Source: Phycisphaerae bacterium
GTDB taxonomy: Bacteria; Planctomycetota; Phycisphaerae; SM23-33
DNA length: 64,000 nt
Assembly (NCBI GenBank): GCA_009783465.1
Contig: WRDM01000003.1
Location: 1-64,000, forward strand
Direction: 5' to 3'
This document shows, piece after piece, positions 4,237 to 56,245 of the stretch. Position 1 is the first letter of the stretch, and the number at the start of each line of letters is the position of its first letter. The notes below the pieces were generated by a model, which saw only the letters and a list, made by a program, of their open reading frames with translations, was not told the DNA's origin and made no database searches. A program made the translations under genes and the position numbers.

Positions 4237-5337
4237 ATGAAACGCGGCGTGTGGTTGGCTGTGGTGTGTGCGGTGCTGGCCGCTCCGGCGTTCGCGGCGG
4301 ACGGCGTGGCGGAGTCCCTTTCCCGCAAGGTCTCGACGTTTCAGGCCAATGGTCCGCTGGACAAGGCCGTCGCGGCATTGGCGACGGCGGGTAAGGTCAA
4401 GATTGCCGTGGATTGGGATCGTCTGACGGCGGCGGGATTGGACAAGCAGACGCGGGCGGTCGTGCGGGCCAGCGACGCGACGGTGAAACAACTGTTGGAT
4501 CTGCTGGTGCTGTCGGCCTCGGAGAAGGACGCGCCACTGGGCTGGTATATCGACGGCGACAAGATTCGCGTCACGACGAAGGCGGCCATCGAAGACCGCC
4601 GCCCCGCGCGGACCGCCTCGGCGAACACGCCAGCCCGCACGTCGGGCGCGTCGGCACAGCCGGCGAAAGAGGCCGCTCCCGCGGCCGTTCCCATCGCCAA
4701 GGCCCTCGAGGGCGGCGTGGAGTTTTCGCAAACGCCGCTTCGCGAGGTCGTGAATTTCCTCCGCGACAAAGCCCGCCTGAATATCGCCGTCAACTGGACC
4801 GCCCTCGAGGAAGTGGGCATCACCAAGGACTCGCCCGTGAGCCTCAAGGCGCGGAATCTCACCCTGGGCCGTGTGCTGGACCTGCTCCTGGCCGACGTCA
4901 GCGGCTCCCGCGACAAATACGAGCGGCTGTATTATGTGATCGACGACGGCGTGGTGCTGATCTCCACCGGCAACGCGCTGAACACCAAAACGAGCACCAC
5001 GGTCACGGACGTCAGCGACCTGCTTCACCCCGTGCCGAACCCCATCGCGCCGGTGCTGAAACTCAACATCACGACCAATCGCGATAACAAAAACAACGAC
5101 AACGGCAGCCCGTTCGAGGAATCGCGCAACGAGGACAAGAACGACCCGCGTTGCGTCTCCCGCGAGGAATATCGCCGGCTGGTGGGCGAGCGGCTGGTGC
5201 AGGCCATCAAGGACTCTATCGGCGAAGACATGTGGCAGCCCGAGGGCAAGGGCGCCATTCAGATCACCGCGCGAGGCCAACTGATTATCACGCAAACGCC
5301 GCTGGGCTTCAAACTGCTGGGATCGGCGGGGCGGTGA
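4237..5337 (+). CDS. secreted protein with two STN-like domains, no secretin core
   Basis: The start at 4237 has AGGAAAGGGG at good spacing; an in-frame ATG at 4210 has no ribosome-binding site. Residues 1-22 are a signal peptide ending AFA|AD. Two similar modules follow. The first (about 25-120) has 'LDKAVAALATAGKVKIAVDW' and 'LLDLLVLSA'. The second (about 160-260) has 'LREVVNFLRDKARLNIAVNW' and 'VLDLLLADVSG'. Each ends in a 'Y.I.DG.I.I.T' strand, the pattern of secretin/TonB short N-terminal domains. The C-terminal 100 residues are charged and polar with no beta-barrel region. It probably acts in the periplasm. Its last 4 bases overlap the tilS start, so the two are likely cotranscribed. 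Confidence 0.65.
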   Translation: MKRGVWLAVVCAVLAAPAFAADGVAESLSRKVSTFQANGPLDKAVAALATAGKVKIAVDWDRLTAAGLDKQTRAVVRASDATVKQLLDLLVLSASEKDAPLGWYIDGDKIRVTTKAAIEDRRPARTASANTPARTSGASAQPAKEAAPAAVPIAKALEGGVEFSQTPLREVVNFLRDKARLNIAVNWTALEEVGITKDSPVSLKARNLTLGRVLDLLLADVSGSRDKYERLYYVIDDGVVLISTGNALNTKTSTTVTDVSDLLHPVPNPIAPVLKLNITTNRDNKNNDNGSPFEESRNEDKNDPRCVSREEYRRLVGERLVQAIKDSIGEDMWQPEGKGAIQITARGQLIITQTPLGFKLLGSAGR

Positions 5338-6542
5338 GGCCGTTGGCGGCATCCTGCGATTTGGTCGATCGCGTGGCGGCGACGCTTGATGCGTGTGGGC
5401 TGTTTCGCGATGCGCGGTGCGTGCTGGTCGGTGTGAGCGGCGGAGCGGACAGTGTGGCCCTGCTGGCGGTGCTGCGAGAGTTGGCGGAGCGGGCCGGCGC
5501 GATGTGGCGGCTGGCGGCGGCGCATTTGAATCACGGCATTCGCGCGGCGGCGGCGGCGGACGCCCGGTTTGTGCAGGCCTTGTGTGCGTCGTGGCAAGTG
5601 GAGTGTATTGTCGGGGCCGCCGACGTGCCCGCCGAGTCGCGGCGGACGGGAGAGAGCATCGAAGCCGCCGCCCGGCGGGCGCGGTACGCGTTTCTTGCCG
5701 ACGCGGCCGAGCGGGCCGACGCGCAGGCCGTCGCGGTCGCCCATCACGCCGACGACAACGCCGAAACGGTGCTGCACCGCGTGCTTCGCGGCACAGGTCT
5801 GGCGGGACTGGCGGGCATTCCCGTCGAGCGCCCCCTCGGTGCCGTGCGTCTGGTTCGGCCGATGCTGCACTGCCGCCGGGCCGACATCGAACAATTTCTC
5901 GCCGCCCGAGGCCTGTCGTGGCGGGAGGATGAATCCAATCGCGATCTCGACCACCGGCGGAATTTCCTCCGCCACGACCTGCTGCCGCACATCCGCGAGC
6001 ACGTCAATCCGCGCGCGGAGGACGCGCTGCTCCGGCTGGCCGAACAGGCGCAGGCGGCAACGGCGTTCCTGCGGACCGAGGCGGAAAAGGTGTTACAGGC
6101 GGCCGTCGAGGCCGTGCAACGGGACGCTGGCGCTTCACGTGGCGAGGGCGTCTCGCCCTCGTGTCCCGCGGGCATCTTGCCCGCGTCGGGCGTCGAAGGC
6201 GATTGGACGTCTTCCAGTGGCCAGTCGCATGGAACGCACAACGCGGGCGAGACGCCCGCGTCACATTGCGGGCCGCCCGCGTTTTCGGCGGCGGTGCTTG
6301 CGGCAGCGTATCCGGCAGTGCGGAGCGAGGCGATTCGATTGGCCTTCGAACAGGCCGGCCTGCCCGCGCGCGATCTGTCCGCCGCCGTCGTCGCGCGGGT
6401 GTGCGACCTGCTGTATGACCCCGCCGTCAAATCCGTAAACCTGCCGCGAGACTGGCGCCTGACACGCCGCCGCGACGTCGTGCGACTCCTGCCGCCTGTA
6501 TCGCGAGATACAAAGAACCGGCGACACGGAGAGAAAACCTGA
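5334..6542 (+). CDS. tilS: tRNA(Ile)-lysidine synthase TilS
   Basis: TilS converts C34 of tRNA-Ile(CAU) to lysidine with ATP. The PP-loop 'VSGGADSVALL' is at about residues 30-40. It is followed by 'AHLNHGIR', by 'ESIEAAARRARYAFL', and by 'VAHHADDNAETVLHRVLRGT', all in family order and spacing. A GTG start overlaps the preceding stop (GTGA). The C-terminal substrate-binding region is recognisable from 'YPAVRSEAIRLAF' to 'LPRDWRLTRR'. Between the two domains, residues about 267-310 are encoded by a palindromic repeat element (6133-6264) and read as low-complexity Gly/Ser/Pro-rich sequence. The frame is kept, so the enzyme may be functional. Confidence 0.9.
   Translation: MRPLAASCDLVDRVAATLDACGLFRDARCVLVGVSGGADSVALLAVLRELAERAGAMWRLAAAHLNHGIRAAAAADARFVQALCASWQVECIVGAADVPAESRRTGESIEAAARRARYAFLADAAERADAQAVAVAHHADDNAETVLHRVLRGTGLAGLAGIPVERPLGAVRLVRPMLHCRRADIEQFLAARGLSWREDESNRDLDHRRNFLRHDLLPHIREHVNPRAEDALLRLAEQAQAATAFLRTEAEKVLQAAVEAVQRDAGASRGEGVSPSCPAGILPASGVEGDWTSSSGQSHGTHNAGETPASHCGPPAFSAAVLAAAYPAVRSEAIRLAFEQAGLPARDLSAAVVARVCDLLYDPAVKSVNLPRDWRLTRRRDVVRLLPPVSRDTKNRRHGEKT
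6133..6264. repeat. palindromic repeat family D, copy inside tilS
   Basis: Inverted 'CGAGGGCGTCTCGCCCTCG'-type and 'GCGGGCGAGACGCCCGCGTC' units bracket a short spacer. The same family is found at 9686-9822, 16795-16944 and 56110-56245. This copy has a length of 132 bases and keeps the tilS frame, adding 44 codons between the catalytic and C-terminal domains. Confidence 0.8.
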
Positions 6543-7237: not shown

Positions 7238-7249
7238 ATTAAGTATTGT

Positions 7250-7368
7250 CGACCACTGTTTTCACTGGCTCGCCTTTTTGCGCTGCAGGACATTGTAAAC
7301 TACAAAACGTTTTGTAATTCACAACATCCTACATCGCAAAAGGCGAGCCCGTGAAAACAGTGGTCGAC
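7250..7368. repeat. palindromic repeat family B, copy 1
   Basis: This 119-bp inverted repeat has perfect outer arms GTCGACCACTGTTTTCAC and an inner GGCTCGCCTTTTTGCGCTG / CGCAAAAGGCGAGCC pairing. The centre is AT-rich with 'CAAAACGTTTTG'. It sits between two convergent genes and may also terminate transcription, though it looks like a dispersed element. Related cores occur near 29400, 31276, 33765, 53493 and 63477. Confidence 0.8.
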
Positions 7369-9667: not shown

Positions 9668-9685
9668 GAGTTCATCCTAAACCGT

Positions 9686-9822
9686 AGCACGGGCGTCCCG
9701 CCCGTGAGTCGCATGGGCGTCTCGCCCATGCAAATCCACATGACAAACCAAACGTTCGCGTTCCAATACCAGCCACGGGCGAGACGCCCGTGGGACGCAT
9801 GGGCAGGATGCCCATGCTACGG
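9686..9822. repeat. palindromic repeat family D, intergenic copy
   Basis: The outer arms are CCGTAGCA/TGCTACGG-like, with inner 'ACGGGCGTCCCGCCCGTG' and 'CATGGGCGTCTCGCCCATG' units. The element separates the upstream end of the second L,D-transpeptidase gene from the 3' end of the cyclo-ligase gene and slightly overlaps the latter. Confidence 0.75.
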
Positions 9823-16794: not shown

Positions 16795-16944
16795 GTGACG
16801 CGGGCGTCTCGCCCGCGTGTGGCGAGGGCATCCTGCCCTCGCAAACCGTTCCACACGGCCGACGCCATGGTGAAAACCCAGGTATTCCGCATCCGAACGC
16901 GGGCAGGACGCCCGCGAGACACGCGGGCGAGATGCCCGCGACAC
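16795..16944. repeat. palindromic repeat family D, between the BamD-like and LptE-like genes
   Basis: Units 'GACGCGGGCGTCTCGCCCGC' and 'GCGGGCGAGATGCCCGCGAC' form inverted arms, with a second nested pair inside. It occupies almost the whole 182-base gap between two co-directional envelope genes. Confidence 0.8.
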
Positions 16945-55124: not shown

Positions 55125-56123
55125 ATGCAACGAATACCCGGCTTTGGCGAGTTTCCCGCGGAATACGCGTCGGATTTGATTGACCTGTCCGTCGGCGGCG
55201 ATGGGCTGTTTCGCGTCGGCGTAGACGGCGTGCGGCGGATTGTTACGCCGTTGGATCGTAAGGAGGAGTTTGTCTGTTACGACGACAAAACGCTGTGTTA
55301 CATCAAGAGCGCGATGGGCTACCCGGCCATGTATCCGCTGGAGGAGGCCCGGTTTGAAGGCCCTGCCGAGGCGGTGTTGATGGACCTCGACGGCACGAGC
55401 GTGCACAGCGAACATTTCTGGATGTGGATCATCGAGCGGACGACGGCGAAGCTGCTGGGCAATCCGAAATTTGAACTCGAAGGCGTCGACGAGCCGCACG
55501 TCAGCGGACACAGCGTGAGCGAACATTTGCAGTACTGCATCGACAAATACTGCCCGGATAAAAAAGTCGAGGACGCGCGGCGGATTTACTTCGAGGTCAC
55601 GCATCACGAGATGGCGGAGATCACAGCCGGCCGGGGCAGGCCCAACGCGTTCACGCCCTCGCCGGGGCTGAAGGAGTTTTTGCTGGAGCTAAAGGGCCGG
55701 GGGATTAAGATCGGATTGGTGACGAGCGGGCTGTTCGAGAAGGCCTGGCCTGAGATTCTGTCCGCCTTCCGCACGCTGGAGATGGGCGATCCGCTGGAGT
55801 TTTACGACGCGATCATTTCGGCCGGCCATGCTATTCGCAAAGGGCAGGCGGGCACGTTGGGCGAGTTAACGCCCAAGCCGCACCCGTGGCTATACGCCGA
55901 AACCGCCCGCGTGGGGCTGGGACTCGGCAAGGATCGCCGCGCCCGCGTGATCGGTATGGAGGATAGTTCGGCGGGCGTGGTGTCGATCCGGCTGGCGGGT
56001 TTCGCGGCGATCGGCGTCGCGGGCGGCAACATCGTCAAGGGCGGCGTGAGGCCGTTGCTGAATTACGACGTCACCGACTTAGCGGAGGCGCTGCCGGTGA
56101 TTACAGGCGAGGCATTCACGTGA
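55125..56123 (+). CDS. HAD-superfamily hydrolase, 3' end altered by a repeat
   Basis: The product has 332 aa. Motif I 'AVLMDLDGTSVHSEHFWMW' is near residue 86-104. Motif II is in 'GRGIKIGLVTSGLF', the lysine in 'LGELTPKPHPWLY', and motif IV in 'RVIGMEDSSAGVVSIRLAG'. The first 80 residues are an extra N-terminal domain without a recognised fold. The C-terminal codons and 29 bases of this gene are duplicated beyond a family D palindrome (56081-56109 and 56246-56274). The present end (...VITGEAFT) may replace an older end (...VITGG). The function is unknown. Confidence 0.82.
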   Translation: MQRIPGFGEFPAEYASDLIDLSVGGDGLFRVGVDGVRRIVTPLDRKEEFVCYDDKTLCYIKSAMGYPAMYPLEEARFEGPAEAVLMDLDGTSVHSEHFWMWIIERTTAKLLGNPKFELEGVDEPHVSGHSVSEHLQYCIDKYCPDKKVEDARRIYFEVTHHEMAEITAGRGRPNAFTPSPGLKEFLLELKGRGIKIGLVTSGLFEKAWPEILSAFRTLEMGDPLEFYDAIISAGHAIRKGQAGTLGELTPKPHPWLYAETARVGLGLGKDRRARVIGMEDSSAGVVSIRLAGFAAIGVAGGNIVKGGVRPLLNYDVTDLAEALPVITGEAFT

Positions 56124-56245
56124 CGCGGGCGTCTCGCCCTCGCTGGCCATTCCGTGCGACAGGCGCATGAAGAAAATCAAGGCTTTCGCCTAGCCTGACG
56201 CAGGCGGGACGCCCGCGAGACACGCGGGCAAGATGCCCGCGTCAC
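56110..56245. repeat. palindromic repeat family D with 29-bp flanking duplication
   Basis: Arms of the 'GACGCGGGCGTCTCGCCC' and 'GGGCAAGATGCCCGCGTC' type bracket the element. AGCGGAGGCGCTGCCGGTGA plus 9 more bases occur directly before it (56081-56109) and directly after it (56246-56274), identical over 29 bases. Confidence 0.85.

Follow-up and report, generated by a model that had tools for sequence, protein, structure and literature searches.

The window, i.e. the whole stretch of 64,000 nucleotides that was analysed, carries the gene of a tRNA(Ile)-lysidine synthase, tilS, with a composite repeat of the REP type inside its reading frame, and three further composite elements along its length:

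5337-6542, plus strand: tilS, tRNA(Ile)-lysidine synthase; open frame with the stop codon at 6540-6542, PF01171 and PF09179 domains
6139-6264, plus strand: REP-type composite element in the tilS frame, 126 bp; hairpin, hairpin, 62-nt spacer, inverted hairpin
6143-6161, plus strand: left outer hairpin, core at 6146-6158, preceded by GTGG at 6139-6142
6167-6185, plus strand: left inner hairpin, core at 6170-6182
6183-6244, plus strand: spacer between the cores, 62 nt
6242-6260, minus strand: right, inverted hairpin, core at 6245-6257, with the tag GTGA on the minus strand
9684-9820, no strand assigned: composite element of the S subfamily, GTAG-tagged, not called in frame
16795-16944, no strand assigned: D-subfamily composite element with GTGA and GTGT as tags; not scored as in frame
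56120-56245, no strand assigned: D-subfamily composite element over which no frame is open

The original prediction had described a palindrome of 132 bases that interrupts tilS between two domains without breaking the frame and adds about 44 residues to the enzyme. The palindromic repeat and its position stand: the tilS frame is uninterrupted across the element, which is placed between the PP-loop domain (PF01171, residues 29-213, E 4.5e-55) and the substrate-binding domain (PF09179, residues 317-380, 20.3 bits, just below the cut-off of 21). Its dimensions, on the other hand, have to be corrected, since the tagged ends at 6139 (GTGG) and 6264 (GTGA, minus strand) delimit 126 bp, or 42 codons, and the arms are unequal, with two hairpins on the left and a single inverted one on the right, so that it falls short of a complete two-by-two palindrome. 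The outer arms (24 nt) are 88% complementary, the right end of the spacer fits the consensus of 16 spacers of equal length, and the RNA of positions 6133-6270 has a calculated folding energy of -81.8 kcal/mol (z = -5.35).

TilS was searched for in 59 relatives, 52 of which gave a match, and 33 of these sequences were aligned. The insert has no counterpart in any of the 33, and at its position the protein has approximately 48 extra residues, 42 codons of which come from the element. Short extra residues close to the same position in L016, L022 and L029 are unrelated to it; in those of G021, G023 and G030 no hairpin peptides are present, and the TilS gap in G024 turned out to be a run of N. A second intact tilS, which would have undermined the original prediction, was not found in the 69.6% complete assembly, where the sole other match of the query is the insert region itself. 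In the AlphaFold model of TilS, built with 22 sequences, the mean pLDDT is 86.4 and residues 277-308 fall below 50; the insert is thus modelled as disordered within an otherwise confidently predicted enzyme.

Judged by its sequence, the repeat is REP-like, with REP tags of the GTAG type. The exact 13-mer of the hairpin core is dispersed in 272 copies over the 2.48-Mb genome (its reversed control in none), as expected for a REP, and in the 64-kb window two hairpin patterns, with up to three mismatches allowed, occur 14 and 11 times vs 1.63 and 0.71 expected. In the usual layout one or two hairpins, spaced with a 24-bp period, are followed by a spacer and then by one or two hairpins in inverted orientation; two subfamilies are distinguished by their peptides, D (DAGVSPA...NAGETPAS) and S (STGVPPVSRMGVSPM...HGRDARAT). 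REPs have been defined by the tetranucleotide preceding the stem, most often GTAG, in the available part of a previous study (PMC8266576); here GTGA precedes 86, GTAG 52 and GTGG 18 of 172 ends (156/172 together), the strict GTAG tag being found mainly in the S subfamily and the tilS copy having the variant tags GTGG and GTGA.

Other genes also carry the element in frame, as had been anticipated. A three-periodic coding model, in which the two flanks are scored separately, was applied to a sample of 749,874 bp in 37 stretches, approximately 30% of the genome and chosen partly around hairpins, which holds 87 complete elements, 86 of them with full flanks. The model placed 22 of the 86 in frame without a stop, three on the same strand in different frames, and 61 in neither class, these last being consistent with the further claim that the element also lies outside genes. 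The proportion in frame, 22 of 25, exceeds the one-third expectation (p = 2e-8). By this strict model the tilS element is not itself counted in frame, with a right flank score of 7 vs the cut-off of 15; nevertheless, both of its flanks gave one and the same frame. A single entry phase is common to all 22 in-frame elements, in either direction of the spacer, while the remaining phases encode Arg-rich peptides or, with a GTGA or GTAG tag, have a stop in the tag; this argument presumes two usable phases, and the tilS copy has no stop in any of its three plus-strand phases. The core-to-core length is a multiple of three in none of the 22 in-frame elements vs 12 of the 61 others (p = 0.03). According to Pfam and NCBIfam, the hosts of the 22 include a SNF2 helicase, RNase R and PurL (two copies each), ValS, HypF, TrkH, an exosortase, a radical SAM protein, a Rsm22-like protein and a pfkB kinase, and the SNF2 and RNB domain matches run across an insert; the frames of L169 and L170 gave no Pfam match.

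Some of these copies deserve separate mention. In the Rsm22-like gene (L050:8773-10128, minus strand) the element is entered in the usual phase and left in another peptide phase (RGRDARVT), so that an internal length change has preserved the frame. In L040:8233-11475 (plus strand) an element is located between NrfD and ActD domains in one open frame; several elements stand, as here, between two domains that are perhaps separate genes elsewhere, and some of these cases could be gene junctions and not insertions. In L176:5820-8825 (plus strand) a DUF1638 domain is connected through an element to a hydantoinase/oxoprolinase within one open frame, and the repeat may have created this as a gene fusion.

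We counted an element as genic when an open frame extends from it by 130 codons or more in both directions. In this genome 31 of 85 elements lie in such long open frames vs 42% of random places (p = 0.32), in contrast to four relatives, whose stretches were picked around hairpins, where the counts are 0/18 (G035), 0/8 (G014), 2/17 (G006) and 1/10 (G005), with 33-40% for random places. The genic share here, 31/85, differs from the 3/53 of the four relatives taken together (p = 3e-5); counting any cluster with an exact hairpin, 42 of 102 are genic here and 9 of 79 there, and the coding model found none in frame in G035 (0/18) or G014 (0/8). The repeats of this genome thus show no clear avoidance of genes, unlike those of the four relatives. 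Three of the four gene-avoiding genomes have a RAYT in valS, hence the RAYT alone does not account for intragenic spread.

Two Y1 transposases were found in this genome. The 3.3-kb locus of the first, on contig C23, is devoid of exact cores; the other, on contig C1, is a RAYT, since it matches the curated family NF047646 (87.8 bits vs a cut-off of 80), and it resembles E. coli TnpArep 4er8 (E 1.7e-8). This RAYT shares one open frame of 942 residues, cut at the end of contig C1, with valyl-tRNA synthetase, and double hairpins of the repeat type bound it at both ends; a second element, without a transposase, is located further along the same valS gene. Neither the RAYT with the same hairpins inside valS nor the GTAG-type tags could have been seen by the original prediction. 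In the ValS alignment, residues of the HIGH and KMSKS regions do not vary. The continuous frame suggests that ValS and RAYT would be translated as a fusion, for which the AlphaFold model is poor (mean pLDDT 49.2). Separate initiation of the RAYT within the ValS frame may also occur, the nearest ATG, GTG or TTG being 7-23 codons before the conserved RAYT start in the 12 rows of the ValS branch.

The valS RAYT is likely to mobilise the repeats. Among the 60 genomes searched, this one included, the 10 with a strong RAYT have 9-347 cores, whereas 40 of the 50 without have 0-5 (p = 4e-6); the association persists when this genome is left out (p = 1e-5), both values being calculated irrespective of kinship, and G035 has 197 cores but only a distant RAYT. 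As for the origin of individual elements, matches to the RAYT element, over 10-28 nt, were obtained for only 24 of 86 spacers, and several of these matches are hairpin sequence, so that descent of the elements from it is no more than hinted at. The right end of the tilS spacer has 10 nt in common with the right end of the RAYT element. For the GTAG-tagged subfamily the 69.6% complete assembly yielded no RAYT.

The search of the 60 genomes gave nine further strong RAYT matches (E < 1e-70). In 11 of 13 aligned ValS loci, this genome included, the RAYT is inserted between the YPL and ATTRPETM motifs (two of the 13, L054 and L084, look like one genome); in L057, from G021, a contig end falls inside the valS insert, and in L056, from G005, a RAYT of the ValS branch occupies a second, later position, presumably the C-terminal part of ValS, with the usual loop empty. 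A survey of this loop covered 29 loci, i.e. 30 fetched of the 57 matching genomes, with no result for L198: eight loops are filled (one split over two contigs), 15 are empty (G005 included) and six have short extra residues, which are hairpin-like in G017, G010 and G034 and merely suggestive in G016, G024 and G031. The hairpin pair in the loop of G034 is absent in three genomes of its genus; the net difference of 39 nt preserves the frame, and some of the neighbouring codons have been exchanged. We then compared trees, asking about vertical descent vs repeated entry at one valS site. RAYT and ValS distances show no correlation (rho 0.01, Mantel p 0.50). A grouping picked after the trees were seen had p 0.04 in a single AU test on ValS, and the three AU tests on RAYT gave p 0.13, 0.23 and 0.27.

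ValS is not the only host. Within the searched genomes, RAYTs in LeuS frames were identified in G035, G023 and G021; host sequence flanks the RAYT on either side in G021, the other two loci being cut. The RAYT of G025 interrupts an ETF domain. Scanning named genomes with the RAYT gave 356 relatives of it, and in 31 of the best 80, which were kept, host-protein sequence was recognised by Pfam or BLAST on both sides of the RAYT in the open frame: ValS (6), MetH (6), LeuS (5), Sua5 (3), a TPR protein (3), AlaS (2), methylases (2), and one each of a DinG-type helicase, CarB, IspG and an FAD/FMN oxidoreductase. Three of the ValS loci (L084, L090 and L091) look like genomes of the 60-genome search, and the host labels of five MetH loci (L141, L148, L151, L156 and L158) and two TPR loci (L149 and L150) were assigned by geometry and then confirmed by BLAST. 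Six further loci of the best 80 have host sequence on one side (L086, L088, L109, L113, L114 and L135), and in the remaining 43 the RAYT is alone, truncated or of unknown context. When flanks were re-tested, L157 and L061 proved two-sided, and the second flank of L086, L088, L113, L114 and L135 had no Pfam match. RAYTs nested in housekeeping genes recur across several phyla, also in strain-titled records, such as that of Roseibacillus persicicus KCTC 12988, where MetH is found on both sides. The HUH and tyrosine motifs are present in 87 of 88 RAYT sequences. In a quick tree of 88 rows, from which L002, L084, L090 and L091 were left out as copies of loci already in, the host labels take 22 changes (minimum possible 15), one starred group comprises 11 of the 12 ValS rows, and LeuS takes three changes, one of them forced by starred branches; 35 of the 85 inner branches are unresolved.

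In-frame REPs are already known, and the tilS insert is a member of this kind: intragenic GTAG/CGTC REPs are described, in the part of the work available to us, as short palindromic repeats, often dimers, located in frame in genes that include repair and tRNA synthetase genes, and O. terrae is given as the species with most GTAG repeats (Di Nocera et al. 2013, PMC3733652). The elements reported here are likewise short, palindromic and in frame, but their tags comprise GTGA and GTGG besides GTAG, and the RAYT is inside a host protein, whereas the available text refers to transposase genes flanked by REPs (PMC3733652). The comparison with Rickettsia RPE, made in the original prediction, is well founded, as the insert is an in-frame palindromic repeat in a gene, relatives lack it and other genes carry the element in frame; RPE is described as likewise palindromic and in frame in coding genes (PMC3733652). 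RPE-4 and RPE-6 are given there as CGTC-type repeats, a type said to have no associated transposase, unlike the present family, in which the RAYT has the hairpins at its ends and the tags are of the GTAG type (PMC3733652).

With the RAYT/TnpAREP systems and their REPINs or REPtrons the present case has in common the RAYT family, with a curated match, HUH and tyrosine motifs and a REP-flanked gene, the GTAG-like hairpin tags and the association with repeat copy number (PMC8049555, PMC8266576, as far as their available parts go). RAYTs are there considered single-copy, vertically inherited, domesticated genes (PMC8049555, available part), whereas many of those found here are in frame inside housekeeping proteins. 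Unexpectedly long TnpAY1 proteins, to which the nested RAYTs may be likened, were discarded as gene fusions or annotation errors, according to the accessible part of a survey (PMC6006769), and nested RAYTs might account for some of them. No title or abstract among the matches listed from published open-access papers describes a RAYT within an aminoacyl-tRNA synthetase or another housekeeping protein, and the in-frame nesting of a transposase in essential genes appears to be a new aspect of the REP/RAYT system.

We consider it highly probable that tilS has received a non-autonomous mobile element of the REP type, copied by a RAYT (a HUH/Y1 single-strand transposase), that persists through its linker phase and whose source RAYT is nested in ValS. 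One reading phase of the element would encode a flexible Gly/Ser/Pro/Thr-rich linker, and genic copies would survive only when the frame is kept, the entry is in this phase and the loop is tolerant, disruptive insertions being purged; if so, the ribosome would read straight through and the host protein would be made with a disordered linker. The probable source transposase would persist likewise, in frame in a ValS loop and between the same hairpins.

Three other explanations have to be weighed against this one. The strong fold of the insert RNA would suit a removal of the element before or during translation, by RNA-level excision or ribosome bypassing, yielding a protein without the insert. 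Stops and length would then be irrelevant, yet the genic elements are overwhelmingly in frame, stop-free and in one phase, and we regard such removal as very improbable. An artefact of assembly or binning at repeats has to be thought of in a genome of 70 contigs and 69.6% completeness; nevertheless, many separate assemblies agree in having this valS loop filled, two-sided nesting occurs in strain-titled records too, as in the R. persicicus MetH, and misassembly is not expected to conserve the frame, which makes this the least credible of the explanations.

More serious, and still unlikely, is the proposal that the tilS insert and the ValS-RAYT fusion are functional domains adopted by the host to regulate TilS or ValS. 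The conservation of the HUH and tyrosine motifs in nearly all RAYT sequences speaks for it, as does the fact that 8 of 29 loci have a RAYT at one and the same valS loop, with another genome having it at a second valS place. However, the loop is empty in 15 of the 29 and holds only short peptides in six, so that ValS has no need of a RAYT there; moreover, the host proteins are unrelated, and the tilS insert is missing in the 33 aligned relatives and modelled as disordered.

Beyond the RAYT-copied origin of the tilS insert, we incline, with considerably less assurance, to a broader reading, in which a branch of RAYTs lives co-translated in loops of essential proteins, where it would be hard to delete because it is translated together with the host enzyme; rare in-frame losses would leave scars of hairpin peptide, and repeats with a stop-free linker phase could spread through genes. 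Such a life would be intein-like, without splicing, and repeatedly reached in unrelated hosts. Inteins with homing endonucleases are mobile genes placed in frame in conserved essential proteins, and the nested RAYTs resemble them in this respect; unlike in inteins, the flanking hairpin peptides stay in frame here. A relation to inteins was rejected, as no splicing domain appears in the Pfam results for tilS, valS and the other host frames. If this reading is true, a transposase kept as part of ValS, LeuS, AlaS, MetH or Sua5 would represent a new route of persistence for a mobile gene, the nested RAYTs would provide natural cases in which essential enzymes tolerate large insertions, and the family would offer a testable case of selfish DNA supplying new peptides to old proteins.

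Apart from the REP elements, the window has another inverted repeat at 7248-7368, 3' of a flavin reductase-like gene, with arms of 31 nt that are 97% matched and 59 nt apart; its type of sequence differs from that of the REP elements.
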